A stretch of DNA of 64,000 bases from Acidobacteriota bacterium (GTDB lineage Bacteria; Acidobacteriota; Terriglobia; Acidiferrales; UBA7541): NCBI GenBank assembly GCA_003225315.1, contig QHZD01000018.1, positions 62,001 through 126,000 on the forward strand, given 5' to 3'. A program made the translations under genes and the position numbers. The notes beneath the pieces were generated by a model. That model was not told the origin of the DNA. It worked only from the letters and a program-made list of their open reading frames with translations, and made no database searches. Positions 36,007 to 63,774 of this stretch are shown one piece after another. Each line of letters opens with the position of its first letter. The first letter of the stretch is position 1.

Positions 36007-39000
36007 TTGACGACCTCACCGGCCGCTCAAAGAAGAGTCTGTTTGCCGTTCGGATTTTTTGCGGCTCGAGTGACGTGGTTGGTCGCCCTTGTGTATCTTT
36101 TCGCGATCCCGTCACCCGCGGCGCCGAGCGAAAATTCCCACGCGAGCGCGTCCTTATCGACCCGTTCTTATCTTTTCTCTACTACCTTTGATTACGCAAC
36201 TGGCAAAGAGGTTACAGAAGATCATTCCGCGGAGCTTCCGCAGGCCGCCCAACAGCAGCAGTTTGTCATCGACCGTATCGAGTTCATCGGCAACCGCCGC
36301 GTGCGCAGTGACACACTGACTGCGCGAATCTTCAGCCGTCCCGGAGATGTCTTCAATGAAGAAACGTTGCGCCGCGATTTTCAGGCGCTGTGGAACACCC
36401 AATTCTTCGAGGACGTGAAACTCCGCGTGGAAGATTCCCCCAATCGCGCTAACGGTAAAATTATCATCTTTGAGGTCAAAGAACGACCGCAGATCCGCCG
36501 CATCCGTTACGACGGCATCCACTCCATTTCCGAATCCGACATTCTCGACCGCTTCAAGGAACGCAAGGTCGGTCTGAGCGTCGAAAGCCAGTTCGATCCC
36601 ACCAAAATCAAGAAAGCGGAAGTCGTGCTGAAGGAATTGCTGGCCGAGCACGGCCGGCAGTTCGCGAAAGTCACTCCGCAGTACGAGCGCATCGCTTCCA
36701 GCAACGCCGTCATTCTCGTTTTCAAGATCGAGGAAGGCCCGAAAGTCAAGGTCGGCAAAATCAAATTCAAGGGAAACCATGCTTTCAGTGACCGCAAGCT
36801 GATTCGCGCCATGCGCCACGATCGTCCCTACGCGATCCCGCTTTATTTCTGGTACATTCCGGTGCTCACCAAGACCTACGACCGCGAAAAGTTGAGCGAG
36901 GACCTGGAAGTCGGCGTTCGCGGCCTCTATCGTGACAACGGTTACTTCAAGGTTTCCGTCGGCGAACCCATTCTGGAGAACATTGACACCACGCATTCAC
37001 GCCTCGGCGTTCCCCTCGTCACCGGAAAAGGCCACGGCAAGGCCGTCAACATCACCATCCCCATCGAAGAGGGAGAACGCTACCGCATGGGCACGCTGAA
37101 GATCGTCAGTGCCGATCCGGACAAGGCCCTGTCCCTCAAGGTCGATGCCCTCAAGGCCGCTTTCCCTCTTAAACAGGGCGACATCTTCTCCACCGAAAAA
37201 GTTCGCAAGGCCCTCGAGACCTACGGCAAAATTTACGGCGAATACGGATTCATCGACTTCACTCCCGAGCCGGACACCGAAATCGACGAAGAAAAGAAAA
37301 TCATCAACCTCACCATGAAGTTTGACGAGCAGAAGCAGTATTTCGTCAGACGCATCGACTTCAGCGGCAACACCACCACGCGCGACAAGGTCATTCGCCG
37401 CGAGCTGATGATCGATGAAGGCCAGCTCTTCAACAAGCGCCTCTGGGAGCTCAGTATCCTCCGCCTCAATCAGCTCGACTATTTCGACAAGATCGAGGCC
37501 GACAAGGCTGCGGAGATTAAGCGCAACAGTAAAGAAGGCACCGTAGACATCAACCTCAAGCTGAAGGAAAAGGGCAAGCAGTCCATCGGTTTGCAGGGTG
37601 GCGTCAGCGGCTTGGCCGGCAGCTTCATTGGCCTTACCTATCAGACCAACAACTTTCTGGGACTGGGCGAGACTCTTACTTTTTCCGCGCAGTTCGGCGA
37701 TCTTTCGCGCAGTTTCCTCTTCGGATTTACCGAGCCTTATCTCTTTGACCGGCCCATCTCCTCCGGTTTCACGATTTTTTCCAGCCGCTACAAGTTTGAC
37801 CAGGCCCGCCAGGCCGCTCTCCTGACCGGCCAGTCCGTCAGCATCAACCCGCAATTCATTCAGAATTACAATCAGGACAGCACCGGCTTCACTCTTTTCG
37901 CCAGCTATCCCGTCCGCAAGCTCTCTTTCACCCGCATTGGCTTGCAGTACGGATTGACGCGCACCAACATCACCGCGTTCAACGACGCCTCCAAGCTCTT
38001 GTTCACCCAGGTGCAATTCCGCAGCATCGCCGGTCCCAGCGCGCTGAATGGAATCGTCTCCAGCACCATCACTCCCACGATCACCTATAACACCGTCAAC
38101 AATCCCATCAATCCCACCGGCGGCAAGAGCTACTTTTATTCGCTTGGATTTTCCGGGCTCGGCGGCAACGTTAAGAGCATCACCAATGTTGTTGATTGGA
38201 AGTACTACCATCCGGTGAACAAACACCGCAACGTTTTGGGCTTTCATGCTTCTGGCGCGTTCATCACCGGGTATGGGGGAGGGGAACCGCCTCCCTATAG
38301 CCGCTTCTATATGGGCGGCGAGTCGGATGTTCGCGGCTTTGACATTCGCTCCATTACCCCCGTCACCTTTATCCCCGTCGCCACCGCGCAGCAGTTCAGC
38401 TACACTTGCGGAACTTGTTTGAATGGTTTCGGCCAACCCACTCAGCGGACCGTCAGTGTTCCGGTCCTCGGGTATACCATCACGTTTCCAGGCGGTGACA
38501 CTCAGGGCTACGGAAACGTCGAGTACCGCATTCCCATCATCGGCAACACCTTCCAGACCGTGCTGTTTTTTGATGGCGGCACCAACGGCATTCTCCGCAA
38601 GGGCGCGTTGCGGCTTGACCCTACCGGGTTCAACAATCTACAGACGAGCTTTCCTAACGCCGTTAGCTCCGGCGCGCTCGACGCCAACCGGCAGCTGGGC
38701 ATCGCTCCGAATACTAATTTTCGCTTGCGCGGTTCTACGGGTATCGAATTTGTCGTACAGTTGCCGATCATCCAGGCGCCCTTCCGCGTCTACTACGCAT
38801 ACAACATCCACCGTTTGCACTCGCAGCTTTTGGCGCCCCCGGATTTCATCGAGTCCAGCGAGATTTGCGATCCAAGCCTGGGAGACAAGTGCGGCACTCT
38901 GGGCCGCCTCCCCGCCACGCTCCCGCCGGACGTCTGGAGGTTTCAGGTCCGGCCCACGATTGAGCAACTGCTAAAGAATCCGGGGAGCCTCAACTATTTC

Positions 39001-39045
39001 GAGCCGGCGCGGACATTCCGTTTCACGGTCAGCCGGACCTTTTAG
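36007..39045 (+). CDS. bamA: Outer membrane protein assembly factor BamA
   Basis: BamA inserts beta-barrel proteins into the outer membrane. The 1012-residue product (normal ~800) has a signal peptide (WLVALVYLFAIPSPAAP), several POTRA domains (~80-500; e.g. FVIDRIEFIGNRRVRSDTLT and RRIDFSGNTTTRDKVIRREL) and a C-terminal 16-strand barrel with the lid-lock GGESDVRGFDIRS motif. It ends FRFTVSRTF; the final Phe is the barrel-recognition signature. Cysteine pairs in loops (YTCGTC; ICDPSLGDKC) could form surface disulfides. Start is TTG 36007. Followed by the giant lipoprotein and a Skp-like gene. Confidence 0.95.
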   Translation: MTTSPAAQRRVCLPFGFFAARVTWLVALVYLFAIPSPAAPSENSHASASLSTRSYLFSTTFDYATGKEVTEDHSAELPQAAQQQQFVIDRIEFIGNRRVRSDTLTARIFSRPGDVFNEETLRRDFQALWNTQFFEDVKLRVEDSPNRANGKIIIFEVKERPQIRRIRYDGIHSISESDILDRFKERKVGLSVESQFDPTKIKKAEVVLKELLAEHGRQFAKVTPQYERIASSNAVILVFKIEEGPKVKVGKIKFKGNHAFSDRKLIRAMRHDRPYAIPLYFWYIPVLTKTYDREKLSEDLEVGVRGLYRDNGYFKVSVGEPILENIDTTHSRLGVPLVTGKGHGKAVNITIPIEEGERYRMGTLKIVSADPDKALSLKVDALKAAFPLKQGDIFSTEKVRKALETYGKIYGEYGFIDFTPEPDTEIDEEKKIINLTMKFDEQKQYFVRRIDFSGNTTTRDKVIRRELMIDEGQLFNKRLWELSILRLNQLDYFDKIEADKAAEIKRNSKEGTVDINLKLKEKGKQSIGLQGGVSGLAGSFIGLTYQTNNFLGLGETLTFSAQFGDLSRSFLFGFTEPYLFDRPISSGFTIFSSRYKFDQARQAALLTGQSVSINPQFIQNYNQDSTGFTLFASYPVRKLSFTRIGLQYGLTRTNITAFNDASKLLFTQVQFRSIAGPSALNGIVSSTITPTITYNTVNNPINPTGGKSYFYSLGFSGLGGNVKSITNVVDWKYYHPVNKHRNVLGFHASGAFITGYGGGEPPPYSRFYMGGESDVRGFDIRSITPVTFIPVATAQQFSYTCGTCLNGFGQPTQRTVSVPVLGYTITFPGGDTQGYGNVEYRIPIIGNTFQTVLFFDGGTNGILRKGALRLDPTGFNNLQTSFPNAVSSGALDANRQLGIAPNTNFRLRGSTGIEFVVQLPIIQAPFRVYYAYNIHRLHSQLLAPPDFIESSEICDPSLGDKCGTLGRLPATLPPDVWRFQVRPTIEQLLKNPGSLNYFEPARTFRFTVSRTF

Positions 39046-39142
39046 GGTGTGATGACTTTTATGGTCTTTGATAAAACCCGGGAATTCACCAGCGCAGTAG
39101 AGGCGAAACGCTTGCAACGTGCGCGAATGTGGGGGAGTGGGT

Positions 39143-42100
39143 ATGAAGTGGCATAAACGTACGAAAAACATCCTGGTGGCGGCAGCTTTAGCCGGTCTTT
39201 GGATCAGCGGCTGTGGCAGCAGCGGCACGGCCAATCAGATCGTTGTTACCGTCACGGGCACGGCGTCCATCATGGTCCCGACGCAAACACAGACCATTAC
39301 ATCCACTGTCACCGGCGCCACTGACGTGTCTTCCACTTTCGACTGCTCCTACACCACCACGCCGAATCCTACGACGGCTGTGCCGAGCCCCAAGCCTTCC
39401 GCTTCCGCGTCCTGCGATAGTGCCAAGACCGCCAGCGGCGATCCCGCCGTCGGCGCTCTCTCCAACATTCAGAACACCAGCACCACTGTCTCTTCCACGG
39501 CTACTTTTACCGCTCCGAGGGTTTTTCCCGATCAGACCAAGCTTCCCAACGTGATCGTTACCATCACCGCAACCTCCAACGCCGACAAGAAGAAGACCGG
39601 AAAATTCAACATCACCTTTGATTCCGGCATTCGCATTCATATCATCCCCGCGACCGCGACCCTCGCCACCAATGCAACGCAGTTGTTTCTCGCCGAGGAT
39701 TTGAACAACACGGTCATTGATCCCGCCCAGCTTACTTGGGGCGTAACATTCGAAGTTACCGCGAAGATCGATAGCGCGGACTGCAGCACTGGGAGCAACG
39801 CTTGCGGCTCCGTTGATGCAACCGGCCTCTACAAGGCTCCCGCGGCTGTTCCCACTGCTGCGCCGGCCTCGACGACCACGCCCGTCAATGCGGCGGGCAT
39901 CGTCACCGTCTTCGCTTTCTCCAAAGTCGACAACGCCCGCATCGCTCAGGCCGCCGTCACCCTGGTCACTGCGGGCGACATCACCTTCAGCGGCATCTCT
40001 CCCTCTATCGCTCCCCAGGGCGCTCTACAGCAGGACATCTTTCTCGCCGCCGCCAACGCCGACTCGCAGATGGGTGTTAACCTCATCGATTCCTCTGGGA
40101 ATGCCACTACCATTAATCCCCAAACACAGATCAAGGTGGTCTTTGCTGCGGGATCGACTTCAACTTCCATTGGTGCTCGCGTTCGCCTGAACTCGGAGAA
40201 TTTGAAGACCCCCGGCCACTATACCGTGCAAGTGACCAGCAGCAATTCCTCCGTCAATGTGACAGGCGGGCCGTTCCCGCTGGACATTGTCCCGGTACGC
40301 CCCACCATCGTCGGCTCCTCCCCGGGCAGTTTTCAGGAAGCCACGCTGGGCCAGACGGGCGGCGTGCCGTTCATCATCGACGGCGGTTTCTTTGGCCCCT
40401 CGGACTCGCCTACCGTCGCCACTAATTTCAATGGACAGGCCTTGCTTACGAATTCCTCGACAGTGTCCGCTTCCACGGCGCGGCGAATCTCGGGCTTCTT
40501 GCCCGCTCCCAGCGGCACCGGCCACACTGCAGGTTTGTATTCATTCGGCGTCCAGTACACCACGTCGCCGGGGCCGTTCACTGCTCCCACGCCGGCAACT
40601 GCCTTCACCAACGTCGCCATCATCCCGGACTACGGAAATTCGAACAAACCCGGCACTCCTTCACTGCTCACGCTTCCCGCGTCTTCAACTCCCAGCGCGA
40701 TTGCCTTGGACTCCGGCCTCGGTTACGCCGTTGTGACGCTCGCGGGTCTGAATACGCCCGGCAGCAACACCAATACACAGAACAACGTGCAATTCCTCAA
40801 TCTCGCTAGTGGTACTCCCGTCTTAGCGACAGCAGTTTCTTCCGGGGGCAACGTCGCGACGGGCGTAGCCGTCGATGAGCACTTGCATGTCGCAGCCGTG
40901 GTGAACTATGCGAGTCGGTCCCTCTCGGTTCTCTCCATTCCAGCAGGCACGTTGCTGGCTACCGTGGATTTGAGCGCCGTGATTCCGCAGCCTGTCCCAG
41001 CTAACCCATCGTTCGTGGAGCCGTTTCCATACTCCGTGGGTGTTGATCCATTTACGGATCGCGCCCTGGTGGCCTTCGCTTCCACAAACGTAGGGCTCAT
41101 CATCAATTTGGATCCCAATTTCACCTTCAATCCCGATCCCAAGGTTCCTCCGCAGTGCATACTTCCGGGACCGGTTTCAGCTCCAAACTATTGCCCCATC
41201 GGCTACGTCACGCTGAACAGCGGGCCAAATCCCCAGGTTGCTTTCGAGGCCGGTGCGCGCATGGCTTACGTCACTCCTGGTGGGGCGGGGCTTCTCTCGG
41301 CGGTGGACCTCTCCAATGCTTCCAAGGGTTCACTCGGTGTACCCATCGCCAGTGCCACCCGCGCTTCCAACGTTGTCACCATCACGACGTCCTCTTCTCA
41401 CAATCTCAATCCCAGTAACCCCGGCACTGTGCTCGTCAGCGGGCTGCCGAAAGGAACCACCAACGGCACGAATTTCGATGGTTCTTTCTCCGTTGGCGCT
41501 GTCCTTGATGCCACGCACTTTCAGTATTTCCAGGCGGACAAAGATGACACCACCACCTGCTCCGGCTCCTGTCTTGCCAGTTCCGGAACTCCGTTCCTCA
41601 CGTATACGATATCTCCGTCAATCACGGGCATTGCGTTCAATCCCGTCACGCGGCAGGCCGTTCTTGCCGACCCCAACGTTACCTCCAGCCAGATTAATTT
41701 CATCGATCCGCAGAGCCAGTCTGTTGCTTCGATGACCCTTTTTGTGGGTGCCACGGGCCAGGTAGGCACGGGTTCACCGGAGCTTGGCGCCGATGATGTT
41801 GCATTCCAGCCCTTGTCCAATACCGCAGTTTCTTTTAATCCAAAACTCAACCAAGTCTCTCTCCTTGATCCATCTCTCTTGCAGCGCGCCGCCATCGTTA
41901 GCACTGGCCAAAACGGCCTGGCTACAATCTGCGCGGCGAATTGCACTTCCACCACACCGGCGAATGTGTCCATTCCTGGAGCCCTCGCCGTCGATTCCGT
42001 CGACAACCTGGCTCTGGCCGTCAATTCTGGCAGCGACAGTATTTCTTTCTTCCAACTCGGTACTATTAAGGCTGTTCACATTGAAAGCGTTCAAACGCCC

Positions 42101-43486
42101 GCGATCGATGCCGGCAATTCGAATCTCACAACCCCCGCAAGCCTCAGCCCTGCCGTGAAAATCACTCTGGGCACGGCGCCATCGGCCGTCAGCGGCGTGA
42201 AAATTCTCGGCACGGGTTTTGACTCCGGCTCCCAAGTCCTTCTGGACGGCGTTGCTTTTGCCTCGACTGCGTTGGGCAATTTTTCGCTCGTGAGCGGTCA
42301 CGAAATTGACGTAACTATTCCCGTGTCCGTTCTCAATGCCGGCCCGCGTCACTATGCGCTCAGCGTCGCCAGCAGCTCAGGTGTCGCTTCGAACGTCATC
42401 GACTTCACTGTCCTCGAGGAAATTCCTTTGGCTCCCTGCAACGTAACCTCCACGTCGGCAGGCACCGCCGCCGCGCCGGGTGGCGTCGCCATCGACGAAA
42501 TCAATAATCTTGCGGTGGTCACCAATACGGGCTCGGGCTGCAATCAGGTTTCTGTCTTCAGCCTGAATCCCGCCAACATTTTCAGCCAAACCCTCAAGAC
42601 CATCGCCACGGGCGACACGCCTACTGGCGTCGCTGTTCTTCCCAGGCTCGCCTATACCGGCCAAGCTGCCGGAACCTCCGGGGTCGCTGTGGTTACCAAC
42701 AGTGGTTCAAACTCCGCCTCTATTCTTGACCTCGTAAACGGCGTTCCCGTGGCGGATGCCACCGGAAAGGCCATCACTGTGACTGTCGGCACTGGTCCCA
42801 GCGGCGTGGCCATTGACCAGGAGACTAACCTCGCGGTAGTCGCCAACACCAGTTCGAATACCGTTTCCACCATTGATCTCACGCCCCTGACCGCCAGTCC
42901 CATCGGCACTCTCACACCGGGCACTGTTGCCGTCGACCAAAATCCCATTGCCGTCGCCATTGACCCGGATCGCGGCACCAACGGCCGCGGCCTCGCCGTC
43001 GTGACCTGCCTCCAGGTTAGTGGGGCCTCCAGTCCGCAAGGCGCTTTGGACGGCGTGGACATTGGCGCGGCCACCCCTGCTAGATCGGCATCTGCAACTG
43101 CCTCTTTCCTTTCTGCTACGCCGACGGGCATCGTCTTTGATCCAAGCGTGGTTACTGGCACTACGAACCCTGGCCTCTTTTATGCCGTCTCCACACAGGG
43201 CAACGTCATCACCGAATTCAATCCGGACAGCGGCCAGACTCAAACAATTAAAGTCGGCATTAATCCCAACGCCATTGCCCATAATTTCCAGACGAGCACC
43301 ATCCTCACCGTGAATTCGTTGAGCAATACCATCTCGATTGTGGATTCCCAGACTTTCGCGACCAAGGCAACTCTCGGTATTGGCGCCACATCGAAATTTG
43401 CAGCAGCCATCCAGACTTTTACGAACCTGGCGGTCATCGCCGACCAGGCCAACAACCGGGTCATCCTGTTCCCGCTGCCGAAATAG
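39143..43486 (+). CDS. Giant surface lipoprotein with Ig-like/IPT and YVTN-type propeller repeats
   Basis: A 1447-residue protein. The signal peptide ends in a lipobox (WISGC, Cys ~residue 24), so it is likely a lipoprotein. After a Ser/Thr-rich segment come Ig-like and IPT/TIG-like domains (PSIAPQGALQQDIFLAAANA; GVKILGTGFDSGSQVLLDGV). These are interleaved with beta-propeller strands (SAIALDSGLGYAVVTLAGLN; GVAIDQETNLAVVANTSSNT; GVAVDEHLHVAAVVNYASRS). The ATG at 39143 has GGGGGAG upstream. Its location between bamA and the Skp-like gene suggests an outer-membrane or surface role; ligand unknown. Confidence 0.85.
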   Translation: MKWHKRTKNILVAAALAGLWISGCGSSGTANQIVVTVTGTASIMVPTQTQTITSTVTGATDVSSTFDCSYTTTPNPTTAVPSPKPSASASCDSAKTASGDPAVGALSNIQNTSTTVSSTATFTAPRVFPDQTKLPNVIVTITATSNADKKKTGKFNITFDSGIRIHIIPATATLATNATQLFLAEDLNNTVIDPAQLTWGVTFEVTAKIDSADCSTGSNACGSVDATGLYKAPAAVPTAAPASTTTPVNAAGIVTVFAFSKVDNARIAQAAVTLVTAGDITFSGISPSIAPQGALQQDIFLAAANADSQMGVNLIDSSGNATTINPQTQIKVVFAAGSTSTSIGARVRLNSENLKTPGHYTVQVTSSNSSVNVTGGPFPLDIVPVRPTIVGSSPGSFQEATLGQTGGVPFIIDGGFFGPSDSPTVATNFNGQALLTNSSTVSASTARRISGFLPAPSGTGHTAGLYSFGVQYTTSPGPFTAPTPATAFTNVAIIPDYGNSNKPGTPSLLTLPASSTPSAIALDSGLGYAVVTLAGLNTPGSNTNTQNNVQFLNLASGTPVLATAVSSGGNVATGVAVDEHLHVAAVVNYASRSLSVLSIPAGTLLATVDLSAVIPQPVPANPSFVEPFPYSVGVDPFTDRALVAFASTNVGLIINLDPNFTFNPDPKVPPQCILPGPVSAPNYCPIGYVTLNSGPNPQVAFEAGARMAYVTPGGAGLLSAVDLSNASKGSLGVPIASATRASNVVTITTSSSHNLNPSNPGTVLVSGLPKGTTNGTNFDGSFSVGAVLDATHFQYFQADKDDTTTCSGSCLASSGTPFLTYTISPSITGIAFNPVTRQAVLADPNVTSSQINFIDPQSQSVASMTLFVGATGQVGTGSPELGADDVAFQPLSNTAVSFNPKLNQVSLLDPSLLQRAAIVSTGQNGLATICAANCTSTTPANVSIPGALAVDSVDNLALAVNSGSDSISFFQLGTIKAVHIESVQTPAIDAGNSNLTTPASLSPAVKITLGTAPSAVSGVKILGTGFDSGSQVLLDGVAFASTALGNFSLVSGHEIDVTIPVSVLNAGPRHYALSVASSSGVASNVIDFTVLEEIPLAPCNVTSTSAGTAAAPGGVAIDEINNLAVVTNTGSGCNQVSVFSLNPANIFSQTLKTIATGDTPTGVAVLPRLAYTGQAAGTSGVAVVTNSGSNSASILDLVNGVPVADATGKAITVTVGTGPSGVAIDQETNLAVVANTSSNTVSTIDLTPLTASPIGTLTPGTVAVDQNPIAVAIDPDRGTNGRGLAVVTCLQVSGASSPQGALDGVDIGAATPARSASATASFLSATPTGIVFDPSVVTGTTNPGLFYAVSTQGNVITEFNPDSGQTQTIKVGINPNAIAHNFQTSTILTVNSLSNTISIVDSQTFATKATLGIGATSKFAAAIQTFTNLAVIADQANNRVILFPLPK

Positions 43487-57997: not shown

Positions 57998-60900
57998 TTA
58001 CTGTTGAGGCGGTGGCGCGGGGGATTGCAGAGTTCCCGGACTCGCGGCTCCGCGGCCGCCGGTATCGCCGCGGCCGGCGAAAATTGTCCGCGTGAGGTGA
58101 TCCGCCAGCCGCAGTTTTCGCGGGGTGACAAGAATCAGAAGTTCCGTGTCTTGATTCGAATTCTTCCGTCCGCCGAACACATAACCCGCGATGGGGAGAT
58201 TAGCGAAGCCCGGCAAGCCGGTGATCGAGCGGGTCTCTTCCGTATCGGTGAGCCCGCCAATCACGGTCGGTTCGTCCTGTTTGACGCGAACAGTTTGCGT
58301 CAGCGTACGATTCGAAATGATGGGAATGCCGTTCACGCTGGAGCCCGACAGGGAGCGGATTTCGAATTCGAGCAGCAAAGTAACTTCATTGTTGGAATGC
58401 AGCGTGGGAGTCGCTTTTATTTTCACGCCGAGATCGACATATTCCGAAGCCGGATAGGGCGTCTGTGCAACTCCAACCGTCGAGCTGTTGGCGAAATTCG
58501 TGGAATCCTGAATGATCGTAACAACGCCTTGAGTGGCGGCGGGATCCTGAGACACCAAAGCGACGTCGGGCAGTCCGCTGGTGGTCAACGCGGAGGCGAT
58601 GAGTGCGGAAGGCCTCGTGGGGGTGTTGAGCTCAATACGCGAGGCAAACGTGCCTTGTCCTTGACCGAGATAAACTCCGATCGTGTTGGAGCCTTTGTTG
58701 GTTACAGCGAGGTCCGGGACGGTTCCGTTGGCAAAATTGGCGATCACGATTCCGGCAGGAGTTGACGAGGTTGGCAGGGGAGAGCCGGTCGCTTCTTTGA
58801 ACATGCCGTCCAAATTGCTGCTTCCGAGCAAGATCGAAACGGTAGCGCTGCCCTGGTTCACGACGGCGAGGTCCAGCACGCCGTCGGCGTTCAGGTCCCC
58901 CGTTGCAATGGCCACAGGAGTAGTTCCCACGGAGATTGGAGAACCGGCGGCTTCGACAAGAGTGACATTCAGGTTTTGATCGACGGAGCTGAGGAGAATG
59001 GAAATGTTGTTCGAACCTTGATTGACGACGGCAAGGTCTTGCTCAGCGGCGTTATTGACGGTGTTGGTGCGGTTGCGAAAATTCCCGCTGACCATGGCAA
59101 CGGGAGCGGCTTCCGAAATTGCGGTGGTATTCGTCAGCTTGAAGGGCGAGCCGGGGAATTCCGTAAAGGTGCCATCTCCCTGTCCGCGGAAAAGGGAGAT
59201 GGAATTGTCACCTTGATTGGCGACTGCAAAGTCCAGAAGTCCGTCGCCGTTGAAGTCCGCGACGACCACCGATCTGGGATTATTTCCAACAGCAAAAGGA
59301 GAGCCGGGCGCTTCCGTAAAAAGCCCATTGGCTTTGCCGTTGGCGTCGACGCTTCCCAATAGAACCGAAACATTATTCGAAGTGGAATTCACCAGGACCA
59401 CGTCCGGCGGCTGCGTAGTGGGAAATTTTGTGAGGTCGTTCCGGAAAACCCCCGTGCCAATAGCGACCTGCCCCGTTTCTTTGGCGTCCAAAGTGATCGG
59501 CGACGGCGTTACCTGAGCGAAATTCCCATTGTCTTGATTCTGCAAAATGACAAGAGTGTTGGCCTTGGGATCATCAAAAACGACCGCCAGATCAGGCAAA
59601 GCGCCGCCGGTAAAGTTATTGGCAACCAGCGCGGAAGGATTGGCGCCAACGGTGAAACTTGTTTGCGGGAAAACCGTGGAGCCAGGAAGTCCCGTCAATG
59701 CGGCGGAGTTCCCCACGCTTCCGGAGAGCAGGCTAAGTGTGATCGGATAGCGATCGCCCACGAAAAAGCTGGCAGGCTTGCCGCTTTGCGCGCGCAGCAG
59801 CACCTGGCGCCCGCTCTGCACCAGCGAAAGAGAGTCAGAGAAATCCATGGCGGCGCTTGGAAGCGTAAGTAGAAAAGTGGAAAGGCCGCCGCCGACGACA
59901 GCGACGGCGGGAATGCTGGAGAATCCTTTTCCCGCGAAGATTTGTTGGATGTTGGTGAGCAGGTTGGTCAGCGTCGTCGACGATTTGAGCTTGTTCACGT
60001 CGTTGGTATTCAGGGAAATGAGCTGACTGGATGCCGGAGGCGTGATTCCAAGAGCGCGCGCCTTGTTGCGATCGACTTCCAGGAATTCGATTTCGAGCAT
60101 GACTTCGCCGCGGGCGCGCTCGAGCTGTTGGATGAGCTCACCGGCAAGCGCGAGCCGCTCAGGCGTGTCGCGCATGGTGATGGTGCGGCTGCGAGTGTCA
60201 ATGTCGATGCGCGTTCCGCCGGTTATGTCGCGCAGGATGCGCAGCAACTCGGTAGCGTCTTCAGGCGCAACGGCCGCGGAGAGTGGAAAAGTCTGTTCGG
60301 CTTGCAGGCCGTACTGCCGCCGCTTCTCCGCCGTGTCGGGGGCGACAAAGAACAGGGTGGGGTTCAAGGGGCGCCAAAACGTTCCGGTTTGTCCGCCCAG
60401 AAGGGCAATGGCGGTATAAAAATCCACATCATCCACGCGCAACTGCACGTTCCTGGCAACTACGTCCGGATCAAAAGCCGCCTTCACGCCGAACAGTGCG
60501 GCCAGTTGTTCGTAAACCGTCTTGGTATCGCCGCGCAGATCCAGTTTGCGCTTCACGGCTTGCGCTTGCAGCCGCGGCAAGCCTGAAATTTTCGCCGTGG
60601 ACTTCGCGCGGGGCGAGTCTTCCATGGCCGTGAGCTGCCCGAGGCGCTCTTCAACAATGGTGTTTCCGGGATCGATTCGGAGCGCGGCGCCCAGTTCTTC
60701 GGTGGCCTCCGTCAGGAGTCCTGCTAGAGCATCGCGTTCTGCGGCTTCCACGTAGGCGCGAACCAGCTTGGAGCGCAACGCCGCACCCCGCTCAATGATG
60801 GCGGCGTCCTGCGGTGCGTAACGTGCGGCTTCCTCGTAGGCTGCGAGCGCCTCCTCGAAACGGCCAGCTGCTGCAGCCTTGTCGCCTCGCTCGGCGGCTT

Positions 60901-61039
60901 TCTGAGCACGTTTGGGGTCAGGGCGCCCTATATTGTCTTGAGCATGCAAGGGAGAGGGCATCTGTGCCTTGTGGGCGGGAACCTGCGCAGACAAGAATAG
61001 CGACAAGACCAGAAACGCGCTGAGGCGGAGGATGCGCAT
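57998..61039 (-). CDS. Secretin (type II/IV-pilus type) with inserted seven-repeat FG-GAP propeller
   Basis: A 1013-residue outer-membrane secretin. Signal peptide RILRLSAFLVLSLFLSAQ; TPR-like helices (~43-140); an STN-like short domain (~160-235); a secretin-N module (~250-308); the first half of the secretin barrel (GEVMLEIEFLEVDRNKARAL, ~311-330, to VGDRYPITLSL, ~427-437); then ~430 residues of FG-GAP repeats; then the second half (YVDLGVKIKATPTLHSNNEV; GIPIISNRTLTQTVRVKQDE; TVIGGLTDTEETRSITGLPG; TELLILVTPRKLRL, ~867-985) and a Pro-rich end. Blades 3 and 5 keep calcium-type motifs (DFNGDGLLD, DLNADGVLD). Start 61039 is chosen for the signal peptide; the frame is open to 61228. No pilus or type II genes are adjacent. 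Confidence 0.9.
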   Translation of the reverse strand: MRILRLSAFLVLSLFLSAQVPAHKAQMPSPLHAQDNIGRPDPKRAQKAAERGDKAAAAGRFEEALAAYEEAARYAPQDAAIIERGAALRSKLVRAYVEAAERDALAGLLTEATEELGAALRIDPGNTIVEERLGQLTAMEDSPRAKSTAKISGLPRLQAQAVKRKLDLRGDTKTVYEQLAALFGVKAAFDPDVVARNVQLRVDDVDFYTAIALLGGQTGTFWRPLNPTLFFVAPDTAEKRRQYGLQAEQTFPLSAAVAPEDATELLRILRDITGGTRIDIDTRSRTITMRDTPERLALAGELIQQLERARGEVMLEIEFLEVDRNKARALGITPPASSQLISLNTNDVNKLKSSTTLTNLLTNIQQIFAGKGFSSIPAVAVVGGGLSTFLLTLPSAAMDFSDSLSLVQSGRQVLLRAQSGKPASFFVGDRYPITLSLLSGSVGNSAALTGLPGSTVFPQTSFTVGANPSALVANNFTGGALPDLAVVFDDPKANTLVILQNQDNGNFAQVTPSPITLDAKETGQVAIGTGVFRNDLTKFPTTQPPDVVLVNSTSNNVSVLLGSVDANGKANGLFTEAPGSPFAVGNNPRSVVVADFNGDGLLDFAVANQGDNSISLFRGQGDGTFTEFPGSPFKLTNTTAISEAAPVAMVSGNFRNRTNTVNNAAEQDLAVVNQGSNNISILLSSVDQNLNVTLVEAAGSPISVGTTPVAIATGDLNADGVLDLAVVNQGSATVSILLGSSNLDGMFKEATGSPLPTSSTPAGIVIANFANGTVPDLAVTNKGSNTIGVYLGQGQGTFASRIELNTPTRPSALIASALTTSGLPDVALVSQDPAATQGVVTIIQDSTNFANSSTVGVAQTPYPASEYVDLGVKIKATPTLHSNNEVTLLLEFEIRSLSGSSVNGIPIISNRTLTQTVRVKQDEPTVIGGLTDTEETRSITGLPGFANLPIAGYVFGGRKNSNQDTELLILVTPRKLRLADHLTRTIFAGRGDTGGRGAASPGTLQSPAPPPQQ

Positions 61040-61096
61040 AAACGTCAGAATAGGATAACCTAACTTCGCAGAGCATATAGGACTAGGCTGGTCCGG

Positions 61097-61153
61097 TTGA
61101 CGGAAGTCACTGGTTGCGGTAGACTTAAATCGTAGTTGCAATTCATTTACAAC
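61097..61153 (+). promoter_or_regulatory. Promoter and Fur-like palindrome upstream of the iron permease
   Basis: TTGACG (61097-61102), 17 nt, TAGACT (61120-61125) form a promoter pointing to the FTR1 gene. Directly after it, GTTGCAATTCATTTACAAC (61135-61153) is an imperfect palindrome (14 of 19 positions symmetric) that matches 10 of 14 fixed bases of the 7-1-7 Fur consensus. Fur control is inference. Confidence 0.5.
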
Positions 61154-61163
61154 TGGAGTTCTC

Positions 61164-62426
61164 GTGCTTTCGGCTCTCCTTATCGCACTCCGTGAAGGCG
61201 TCGAAGCTTCGCTCGTCGTCGGCATCATTCTTGTCTATCTCTCGCGAACAGGCCGCGAGCACCTTGCGCGGTTCGTGTGGTACGGCGTTGCGGCCGCCGC
61301 GGCGCTGAGCCTGGGAGTGGCCGTGGCGCTGGAACGCTGGGGCATCAGCGAAGACGGCTTCGAGGGGCTAATGCTCCTTGTTGCTTCGGTCTTCGTTGTT
61401 ACGATGATCGTATGGATGAACCGCGTTGCGCGCCACCTGAAAAAAGAAATTGAGGCCAAGGTGGAGGCCTATGCGGGGAAGGCCGGCAGGGCGGCGGGCT
61501 GGGGGATTTTTCTTTTTGTTTTCCTGATGGTTCTGCGCGAAGGGGCGGAGCTGGCGCTGATTCTGCGAGCCGTGGAGCTTTCGAGCGAAGGCTTGCAAAC
61601 GTGGATTGGGACGATTATTGGAATTTCCGGGGCTGTCGCGGTGGGGCTTTTCTTTTTCAAGGGCACGCTGCGGATTCCGCTGCACCGTTTTTTTGCGGCG
61701 ACGAGCGTCATTCTGATGCTGGTGGCGTTTCAACTGGCGCTTACCGGGCTGCATGAGCTGAGCGAAGCGCGCTGGCTGCCTTCGAGCAAGGCGGAAATGG
61801 CGATTCTGGGACCAATTGTGCGGAACGAGCTGTTCTTTTTCGTGTTCATCTTCGGAGCCGCGGCGCTGTTGATTCTGCGCGAATGGCAGTCGGCGAAGCG
61901 TGACAAGAGCGCTCAAGAGACAATGAACGACGCAGAGAAGCGTTTGCTGGAATCGCAAAGCCGGCGGCAGCGGAATTGGATGATGGCTGCGGCAATCGCG
62001 TCCCTCACAGTGATTCTGGTGCTGACGGCGGATTTCATTTATGCGCGGGCGAATTCGGCGCCGCCGGCGGCGCGACCGATCAATGCCGGTGGCGACGTCG
62101 TGCGCGTGCCGGTCAGCGAAGTTCAGGATGGGAGCATGCATCTTTTCACCGTGAATGCGGGCGGGCAATCGCTGCGGTTCATGATCATCAAGAAACCGAA
62201 CGGATGGGGAGTGGCGCTGGACGCCTGCCGGATTTGCGGGGCGGAAGGCTACCGGCAAGATGGACAGAACGTGATCTGCCGGCACTGCGCTTCGGCGATT
62301 TACATTCCGTCGATTGGCGATCAGGGCGGATGCAATCCCATCGGCGTGCCATCACACTTGGATGGCGGAGAGTTGGTAATCGATATTTCGTCGTTGACGC
62401 AGGCCGCAAAGGAGATTCCGCAGTAG
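61164..62426 (+). CDS. Fused FTR1-type iron permease and DUF2318 (FtrD/Cj1660-like) protein
   Basis: A 420-residue inner-membrane protein. The N-terminal half is FTR1-like, with two REGxE iron motifs on helices: REGVE (residues 10-14) and REGAE (125-129); seven helices are predicted. After an eighth helix (~272-293), the C-terminal ~120 residues match DUF2318, with cysteines C355, C358, C372, C375 and C390 (DACRICGAEGYRQDGQNVIC; RHCASAIYIPSIGDQGGCNP), probably binding a metal or Fe-S cluster outside. In the Campylobacter P19 system these two parts are separate proteins (Cj1658 and Cj1660). GTG 61164 follows GGAG. Confidence 0.88.
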   Translation: MLSALLIALREGVEASLVVGIILVYLSRTGREHLARFVWYGVAAAAALSLGVAVALERWGISEDGFEGLMLLVASVFVVTMIVWMNRVARHLKKEIEAKVEAYAGKAGRAAGWGIFLFVFLMVLREGAELALILRAVELSSEGLQTWIGTIIGISGAVAVGLFFFKGTLRIPLHRFFAATSVILMLVAFQLALTGLHELSEARWLPSSKAEMAILGPIVRNELFFFVFIFGAAALLILREWQSAKRDKSAQETMNDAEKRLLESQSRRQRNWMMAAAIASLTVILVLTADFIYARANSAPPAARPINAGGDVVRVPVSEVQDGSMHLFTVNAGGQSLRFMIIKKPNGWGVALDACRICGAEGYRQDGQNVICRHCASAIYIPSIGDQGGCNPIGVPSHLDGGELVIDISSLTQAAKEIPQ

Positions 62427-62466
62427 GGGCACGAACGACCGCGCGCCTAAGGCTGTCTTTTACATC

Positions 62467-63774
62467 ATGTTTCTAAGAATTGTTGCTGATTCGTTTGGAC
62501 GCCGTCCGCGCCATAAGCTCCTTACCGGGGCGGCGCTGGCGCTGGGCATGGGAGTAGTCACTGCGGCCTTGAGCGTGTCGTTGGATGTGGGCGACCGGCT
62601 GGCGAAAGAATTCCGGAGTTTGGGCGCGAATCTTGTGGTGACGCCGCAAGCGGATTCGCTGCCATTGGAGATTGGCGGCGTGGACTTCCGGCCGGTGAAT
62701 GCGGGCGCTTACCTGCCGGAAGCAGACCTGCCAAAATTGAAGACCATTTTCTGGCACAACAATATTATGGGCTTCAGTCCAATTCTCGAAGTTCCGATTG
62801 AGGCTTGGTCGCCGGCTTCCCAGACTTGGATTACTCCCGCTGTCGCAGGCCATACGTCCTTGATTGGGACCTGGGCGCAACACCGTGTCGAAATTCCCGA
62901 CGGCGCGACATTTCTCACTGGAGTGGTGAAAACAAATCCTTGGTGGGGTGTCCAGGGACAGTGGTTTGGCGAAGACTCGCTGCAATGTGTTGTCGGAGTG
63001 AATCTCTCAAGAAGAATTGGAGCAAAAATAGGCGATGATTTGAACGTAAGTTCCGGAGACCACGCAAAATGGGTCACCTTGAAAGTCGTAGGTCTTCTTT
63101 CGTCAGGCGGGTCCGAGGATGAGAGTGTTCTCGCTCCACTTTCAATTGCGCAACAACTTGCGGGCAAACCGGAGCAGTATCGCAAATTGTATGTGAGCGC
63201 GCTGACTAAACCGGAAGACGATTTCGCGCGGCGCGATCCGAAGACGATGAGCGCTGGCGAATTCGAGAAGTGGTCCTGCAGTCCCTATGTCTCCTCGATT
63301 GCCTATTCTATTAAACAGGTCCTGCCCGGGGCCGATGTTCGCGTGATTCGGCGCGTGGCGGAAGGTGAAGGGCAGATTCTCACGCGTATGCGCATGCTGC
63401 TGTGGCTGGTCACAGGCGCGGCGCTGCTCGCTGCGGTGCAGGCCGTTGGGGCGTCTTCGGCGGCTTCGGTGATTGAACGGCGCACGGAAATTGGCTTAAT
63501 GAAGGCGCTGGGTGCGGGCTCCGGCACCGTGGGATTCCTGCTTGCGGCAGAACAGCTTTTGCTCGCGTTCGTGGGCGGGGGAGTCGGTTACTCGCTGGGG
63601 ATTGTTCTGGCGCGCCTCCTGGGACAAAAAATCTTTGGCGCGGCACCGGAATCATCTTTGATTGTCTTTCTTGTGGTTATTGCGCTTGCTGCCGGTGTCA
63701 CCTTTCTGGGCAGCGCGCTTCCGCTGCGTCGCGCTTCGCAATACGAGCCGGCGCCAATCCTGCGAGGCGAATGA
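62467..63774 (+). CDS. FtsX/MacB-type ABC transporter permease
   Basis: A 435-residue permease. Helix 1 (~18-38, LLTGAALALGMGVVTAALSV) precedes a large extracytoplasmic domain (~60-300; GANLVVTPQADSLPLEIGGV) and three C-terminal helices (~308-335, ~345-385, ~390-420). The coupling-type sequence SVIERRTEIGLMKALGAGSG is present. In the P19 iron system two such permeases (Cj1661 and Cj1662 types) follow the FTR1 and DUF2318 genes, matching this order. It ends ATGA-overlapping the next gene. Confidence 0.88.
   Translation: MFLRIVADSFGRRPRHKLLTGAALALGMGVVTAALSVSLDVGDRLAKEFRSLGANLVVTPQADSLPLEIGGVDFRPVNAGAYLPEADLPKLKTIFWHNNIMGFSPILEVPIEAWSPASQTWITPAVAGHTSLIGTWAQHRVEIPDGATFLTGVVKTNPWWGVQGQWFGEDSLQCVVGVNLSRRIGAKIGDDLNVSSGDHAKWVTLKVVGLLSSGGSEDESVLAPLSIAQQLAGKPEQYRKLYVSALTKPEDDFARRDPKTMSAGEFEKWSCSPYVSSIAYSIKQVLPGADVRVIRRVAEGEGQILTRMRMLLWLVTGAALLAAVQAVGASSAASVIERRTEIGLMKALGAGSGTVGFLLAAEQLLLAFVGGGVGYSLGIVLARLLGQKIFGAAPESSLIVFLVVIALAAGVTFLGSALPLRRASQYEPAPILRGE

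Follow-up and report, generated by a model that had tools for sequence, protein, structure and literature searches.

A secretin seals the outer membrane by means of its central gate, which has to move if anything is to be transported; in the solved secretins included in this comparison, that gate is a short loop. A 64,000-nucleotide stretch of DNA from an Acidobacteriota bacterium (contig QHZD01000018.1; hereafter the window, whose positions are used throughout) encodes a secretin whose two halves stand far apart. This raises the question of what separates them, where in the channel it sits, and what a pore built in this way could do. An earlier note, made from the sequence alone, had proposed that ~430 residues carrying seven FG-GAP repeats form a propeller inserted into the barrel or gate region. 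What is added here is where exactly the insert sits, that the repeats always number seven, which family carries it, that insertless relatives exist, and that it is under selection.

The secretin gene is an open reading frame of 1076 codons on the minus strand (57998-61228). Its true start is likely the internal Met64 (base 61039), a judgement resting on two points: codons 1-63 overlap the divergent FTR1 gene, which starts at 61164, and Met64 is followed by a hydrophobic signal-like stretch of ~26 residues (judged by eye). From this likely start to the stop, the gene spans 57998-61039 of the mechanical frame that begins at 61228, and all features of the protein given below lie on the same strand. 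Nearest the N-terminus is a TPR-like helical region (residues 113-202; 60623-60892), seen as sub-cut-off Pfam TPR matches and five helices in the AlphaFold2 model. An N0/STN-like domain follows (residues 227-297; 60338-60550), assigned from model secondary structure; the Pfam search of the protein gave no STN match. The N1-like ring-building domain (residues 310-370; 60119-60301) is visible in the model and matched by Secretin_N (PF03958; 36.4 bits against a cut-off of 28.2, residues 324-373). The first half of the secretin domain (59738-60106; supported by Pfam, the model, and a match to XcpD G466) runs to the first gate pivot, G491 (bases 59756-59758). The second half (58109-58447) resumes from the second pivot, G934 (bases 58427-58429), and was identified by Pfam Secretin (PF00263; 95.8 bits against 27.5, best stretch residues 891-1037) and by phmmer alignment to solved secretins. 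The domain order is TPR-N0-N1-secretin, with seven FG-GAP repeats separating the secretin halves (FG-GAP_3, PF13517, 75 bits against 26.9; FG-GAP, PF01839, 41.3 against 22.1). The first half closes at FFVGDRYPIT and the second resumes at EYVDLGVK, with 427 residues between these landmarks; the claimed split of ~430 residues held, and the halves end and restart as the earlier note had quoted them. Beyond the barrel, positions 58001-58108 encode a short conserved stretch (consensus R-x-IYAGRG) and then a proline-rich C-terminal tail.

By sequence and prediction, the host protein is a member of the secretin superfamily. The AlphaFold2 model of the window protein, a monomer prediction made with 56 aligned homologues, had a whole-model mean pLDDT of 78.9 and a pTM of 0.48, with the barrel parts less certain. 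For G044, a homologue from the same family that lacks the insert, the first 40 PDB rows returned by Foldseek were all secretins or secretin-containing complexes (best E 1.2e-17); the TM-scores were low to moderate, owing to domain movements. Identity as GspD or PilQ was rejected, as NCBIfam whole-protein scores fell far under the equivalog cut-offs: the GspD model TIGR02517 (cut-off 351.35) gave 85.8 bits for the window protein and 86.7 for an insertless homologue, and the PilQ model TIGR02515 (cut-off 284.35) gave 69 bits for the window protein. In addition to these unmet cut-offs, the window protein differs from GspD and PilQ in having an N-terminal TPR-like region and no system operon.

The insert is a closed seven-bladed propeller of ~44 kDa, a structure predicted by the model and without experimental support. 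Together with a closing N-terminal strand, it covers residues 522-911 (58496-59665; AlphaFold2 and VIA-align 2). A repeat profile placed repeat 1 at residues 528-571 (59516-59647), repeat 2 at 588-629 (59342-59467), repeat 3 at 648-689 (59162-59287), repeat 4 at 708-751 (58976-59107), repeat 5 at 768-810 (58799-58927), repeat 6 at 823-862 (58643-58762), and repeat 7 at 871-911 (58496-58618). The whole array occupies residues 528-911, from 59647 down to 58496, in agreement with the earlier placement of the repeats at 58505-59647. Block pLDDT across the propeller region was mostly 81-97. Reading the strand list by hand, we found three strands per repeat and a fourth after six of the repeats; repeat 7 has only three, and the model strand 422-426, ahead of repeat 1, is left over to complete blade seven. 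Such a closure is termed a Velcro closure, and the characteristic loops of such repeats are termed calcium loops. The possibility raised beforehand that the propeller might not close was not borne out in this predicted model. Foldseek TM-scores for the whole window-protein model were 0.13-0.29 by query length for most rows, low because the chain is multi-domain. The first 50 rows of VIA-align 2 included seven-bladed propellers at Z 30.7-33.2, with streptogramin B lyase, YncE, and integrin alpha chains among them. These Z-scores were computed on chains ranked first by Foldseek, and the absence of a family from the lists is uninformative.

Exactly seven repeats were counted in all 51 inserts recovered from related genomes, which upheld the earlier count of seven. 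The profile was built from a single homologue's repeats (G036), iterated over those very inserts, and applied at a permissive threshold, so that "seven" is that profile's count; the window-protein model supports seven blades independently of it. A variable, open repeat array was rejected on this basis, the bigger inserts being explained by extra sequence between blades. Nine enlarged inserts (550-680 residues) contain the same seven repeats and another 140-280 residues, which fall between blades 3 and 4 or 1 and 2. The extra sequence could be named by Pfam in the four enlarged members checked, as He_PIG in three and Big_2 in one, both Ig-like. In L014, L016, and L017, three of the loci checked, He_PIG separates blade 3 from blade 4 (L022 and L053-L055 belong to the same group of enlarged loci); in L056, the fourth, Big_2 separates blade 1 from blade 2 (L056 and L057 are from G034 and G035). 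The nested sequence sits at two different blade positions in two lineages.

Across the 51 inserts together, the strict calcium-loop motif was counted 159 times; 200 shuffles gave a mean of 0.29 and a maximum of 3. The loops are unevenly spread, with one to seven per protein (seven in G009 and G043). In the window protein, intact calcium-type loops are present in two of the seven repeats, namely repeat 3 (DFNGDGLLD) and repeat 5 (DLNADGVLD), and the full loop D-x-[DN]-x-[DN]-G-x-x-D is missing from the other five, so calcium dependence may be weak in this protein. The repeat consensus originally proposed, GxxPxAxxxxDFNxDGxxDLAVxNxxxxxVSILLG, held only in part, as it is an idealised form. The insert shares the seven repeats and fold of FG-GAP/integrin-alpha propellers and, to a varying extent, their calcium-type loops, and integrin alphaIIb (9e8a) matched the window-protein model with a Z of 32.0 over 337 aligned residues at 14% identity. 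The streptogramin B lyase propeller matched equally well (Z 33.2), and no specific kinship to integrins is shown. Searching the window's own genome with the propeller at E <= 1e-6 returned only the propeller itself, and the donor is therefore not identified.

By sequence and prediction, the propeller sits inside the central gate loop, with a pivot glycine on either side. The insert is flanked by G491 and G934, which are invariant in 56/56 aligned homologues with or without the insert; P495 and P926, beside the pivots, are also identical in all 56. The gate of XcpD is bounded by pivots at 466 and 496 (PMC10550240), and the hinge glycines of pIV are Gly267 and Gly297 (PMC8563730). A phmmer alignment of insertless G044 to XcpD (5wln) paired G404 and G444 with chain positions 432 and 462, which an offset of 34 turns into XcpD 466 and 496. 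Through this alignment, G491 and G934 of the window protein match the XcpD pivots G466 and G496. From pivot to pivot, the gate loop measures 444 residues in the window protein (58427-59758), 31 in XcpD, and 41-42 in 12 insertless relatives (7 from the window's own order and 5 more distant), consistent with the earlier expectation of a few tens of residues at this point in ordinary secretins. In the window-protein model the insert lies between strands 386-397 and 828-843, and in the G044 model the gate strands 399-412 and 437-453 enclose a low-confidence tip; the propeller and the short tip fall between the same two strands in both models. The suggestion of a domain in the barrel or gate region therefore held and is refined to the central gate loop. 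GspD/XcpD, PilQ, and pIV share with the window protein the Secretin and Secretin_N domains, an N0-like domain (by model), and a two-glycine central gate; the difference is a 444-residue gate holding a folded domain, against 31 residues in XcpD. The top gate (cap gate) of Vibrio-type GspD is likewise extra loop sequence that adds matter at the pore and is tolerated by the barrel (PMC10550240). That gate, however, is a loop of >=80 residues in the apical part of the outer barrel, whereas the insert of this family belongs to the central gate, has 368-680 residues, and forms a separate fold. A top-gate insertion was rejected, as the insert lies between the central-gate pivots and not in the apical region of the outer barrel.

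The split architecture is widespread in one family. Of the 67 genomes of the window's own order that came up in a search of its nearest relatives, 63 were used, after excluding G042, G057, G058, and G066 for weak or partial matches. Both secretin parts were present in 59 of the 63, in a single open frame in 58; G005, G012, G015, and G027 were cut by contig ends. In G053 (L062), a frameshift places the C-terminal secretin part in another frame, through sequencing error or decay. Among the 58 intact homologues, the insert was present at one and the same position in 51, with a length of 368-680 residues; these were all from the window's own family (f1) of Acidobacteriota, and the remaining 7 had just 24-25 residues there. 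These insertless seven comprise G044 and G055 (genus g10, in the same family) and G061-G065 (two sister families). Beyond this set, matches at E <= 1e-20 turned up in 97 of the 101 genomes nearest to the window's, for the most part paralogues outside the order, and a wider order search (95 genomes) was read from its table only. At the class level, 259 of 399 genomes matched. All of the examined frames of >940 residues whose match stops at the gate came from the window's own family, and two long frames outside it (G408 and G096) matched straight through the gate. In a phylum sample of 297 genomes, no split match was found at E <= 1e-36 except in the window's own genome, though distant cases could escape such a search. 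A scan of public genomes returned 19 related loci, nearly all titled Acidobacteria, many of them "gp2", and one Betaproteobacteria.

These homologues bear on a first rival explanation, that the locus is an artefact of chimeric assembly or a decaying gene. In its favor are the frameshifted G053 (1 of 59 two-part homologues) and the four cut by contig ends. Against it stand 51 open frames of the same architecture from different assemblies and dN/dS ratios well under 1, and we regard it as all but excluded: assembly chimerism, which the earlier note had named as one finding that would overturn its reading, was rejected by the split architecture in 51 genomes, and a pseudogene by purifying selection. 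In the insert, dN/dS across 15 pairs was 0.05-0.20; the 295 residues ahead of it gave 0.08-0.27 and the C-terminal part 0.04-0.18, with dS near saturation in some pairs. The insert is old, conserved, and under purifying selection like the secretin parts. Its history is less settled. In a maximum-likelihood tree of the secretin parts, G044 and G055 were nested among the carriers (path support 95, 87, 36, 77, and 80), a position that would mean loss of the insert. An alternative tree, with all carriers in one clade and G044 and G055 outside it, was not rejected (p-AU 0.0625). By eye, the 41-residue gate of G044 and G055 resembles the 42-residue gates of more distant homologues, so these two may never have had the insert. 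Loss and primitive absence are both possible and neither is excluded; the simplest account is that the insert was gained once, at the base of the carriers.

No secretion or pilus genes adjoin the secretin gene. On its converging side lie truB, rbfA, infB, and nusA, of which rbfA and nusA are putative names given from the reading frames; where enough sequence was available, truB was present in 33 of 37 members of the family. The genome's T2SSF (GspF/PilC-type) genes are found only on contig C43, and the window is on C29. Two further secretins occur in the genome: a PilQ on contig C23 (354.4 bits, TIGR02515), close to PilM, and a TPR secretin with a pilin-like protein nearby. The latter, lipoprotein-like and TPR-containing (L088:8938-11184), lies beside a protein with an N-terminal methylation motif, with no obvious full system in the stretch read. 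With no type II or pilus genes alongside, and T2SSF and PilQ elsewhere, we describe the window protein as an orphan secretin, which supports the earlier proposal of a stand-alone channel. Elsewhere in the window, 36007-43483 contains a BamA-like gene (POTRA/Omp85) and, after it, a frame of 1455 residues that has no Pfam match at 1e-6 and that we take, as a guess, to be perhaps a TamB-like partner.

The divergent neighbor is an FTR1-FtrD fusion (61164-62426, plus strand; PF03239 140.6 bits, PF10080 87.2 bits; synteny), the first gene of a Fet-like iron cluster. This cluster, at 61164-63774 and onward (L086:13165-18152), comprises the FTR1-FtrD fusion, then two frames for FtsX-like permeases and one for an ABC ATPase; the permeases, which diverge from the secretin gene past FTR1-FtrD, are FtsX/MacB-like. 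The Campylobacter fetMP-fetABCDEF cluster (PMC10783030) also has FTR1, an FtrD-like protein (DUF2318), two permeases, and an ATPase, unlike the window cluster in that FTR1 and FtrD are not fused. A second rival explanation is that the secretin is the outer-membrane part of this iron system, the propeller serving as receptor and the channel letting through chelated iron or iron derived from minerals. Supporting it, the divergent FTR1-FtrD gene, followed by FtsX-like permeases and an ABC ATPase, was found in 32 of 39 family members with >3 kb of upstream sequence, and the same arrangement occurs in two of five insertless sister-family members (G061 and G062). Furthermore, the outer-membrane step of the Campylobacter Fet cluster is termed "as yet unidentified" (PMC10783030). 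Against it, the neighborhood is missing in 7/39 family members, 3/5 sister-family members, and all 18 class-level homologues, which sit in other gene surroundings. A conserved divergent neighbor may merely share a promoter region, and the link is an association only. Secretins are, to our knowledge, not known to act as iron receptors, and we consider this explanation very unlikely.

Our main reading is that the protein is an orphan outer-membrane secretin with its gate tip replaced by a propeller, and that the propellers form an extracellular, ligand-binding crown that sets the state of the gate. We give this reading a probability of roughly 0.5. Its structural parts, namely the secretin host, the gate-pivot site, the seven-bladed propeller, the conservation, and the insertless relatives, are shown by sequence and prediction. 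The oligomer, membrane side, ligand binding, gating, and transport are all inferred, in the absence of oligomer, ligand, or conductance data; the ring of propellers at the pore entrance and the ligand binding suggested in the earlier note likewise remain inference. If the channel is a 12-15-mer as in other secretins, each pore would carry 12-15 propellers, hanging from the gate hinges on linkers of ~30 residues N-terminally and roughly 10-20 C-terminally. As a rough estimate, 12-15 propellers would occupy 6.4e5-8.0e5 cubic angstrom, against a lumen of 3.8e5 (90 by 60 angstrom). The 90 angstrom is the inner-barrel diameter of pIV (PMC8563730), the 60 angstrom height is assumed, and the stoichiometry is taken from other secretins. 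With the propellers larger than the lumen, the gate tips could not all meet inside the pore. In solved secretins, the gate swings up and outward towards the barrel wall during opening (PMC8563730 and PMC10550240). From the size of the propellers and this upward swing together, an extracellular crown resting above the pore appears most likely, and the Ig-like Big_2 and He_PIG domains nested in the four enlarged members checked are a further point for the extracellular side. There, the propellers may bind an extracellular ligand or surface, and binding or crowding of the propellers would set the gate state, so that gating would come from outside rather than solely from the push of substrate inside. 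That the gate still moves is suggested by its invariant pivot glycines. Several observations count against this reading: the barrel parts of the model are less certain, five of the seven repeats lack a full calcium loop, the GspD and PilQ equivalog scores are unmet, so transport by analogy is not guaranteed, and G044 and G055, from the same family, manage without a propeller.

A third explanation places the propellers below the gate, as a periplasmic receptor or plug that binds cargo or blocks the channel until cargo comes. The gate loop could in principle exit towards either side, and no feature of the propeller fixes the side. However, secretin gates swing upward when opening (PMC8563730 and PMC10550240), 12-15 propellers are larger than the estimated chamber volume, and nested Ig-like domains bring some inserts to 680 residues; we find a periplasmic arrangement unlikely. 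A fourth, surface display without gating, remains possible. Here, the secretin would be a multivalent anchor for an adhesin- or lectin-like propeller crown, with the pore permanently plugged or open and no transport. The absence of secretion and pilus genes beside the gene fits this explanation, as does the estimate that a domain this large at the gate tip would impede closure, and as do the Ig-like domains nested within the propeller, such domains being frequent in surface proteins. Against display, the pivot glycines and their flanking prolines are invariant in 56/56 homologues, insertless ones included, suggesting a working gate, and dN/dS of 0.04-0.27 over the N0/N1/TPR region and C-terminal barrel suggests more than an anchor. 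A bolder extension of the externally gated channel, a giant ligand-gated pore with 12-15 propeller receptors that is possibly the missing outer-membrane entry for the Fet-like system, seems improbable to us.

We found no description of a secretin with a gate-loop propeller in the open-access full-text literature searched. Propellers are tied to a secretin-dependent machine in the PilY1/PilC-type pilus-tip proteins. PilY1 is a protein in its own right, which exits by way of the secretin; the propeller described here is instead part of the secretin itself. It also differs from other FG-GAP/integrin-alpha propellers in sitting inside a membrane-channel loop. Our search for homologues of the same split architecture, a check that the earlier note had proposed, found 51. 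The gate tip evidently accepts large folded inserts, even with nested Ig-like domains. The gate loops of this family, with a 44 kDa domain and intact hinges, are a natural gain-of-domain experiment for which the insertless relatives are the controls, and they make testable both the control of a secretin gate from outside and the sealing of such a pore. The carriers are a family of uncultured soil bacteria, in which this modification of secretins is both unusual and physically puzzling.
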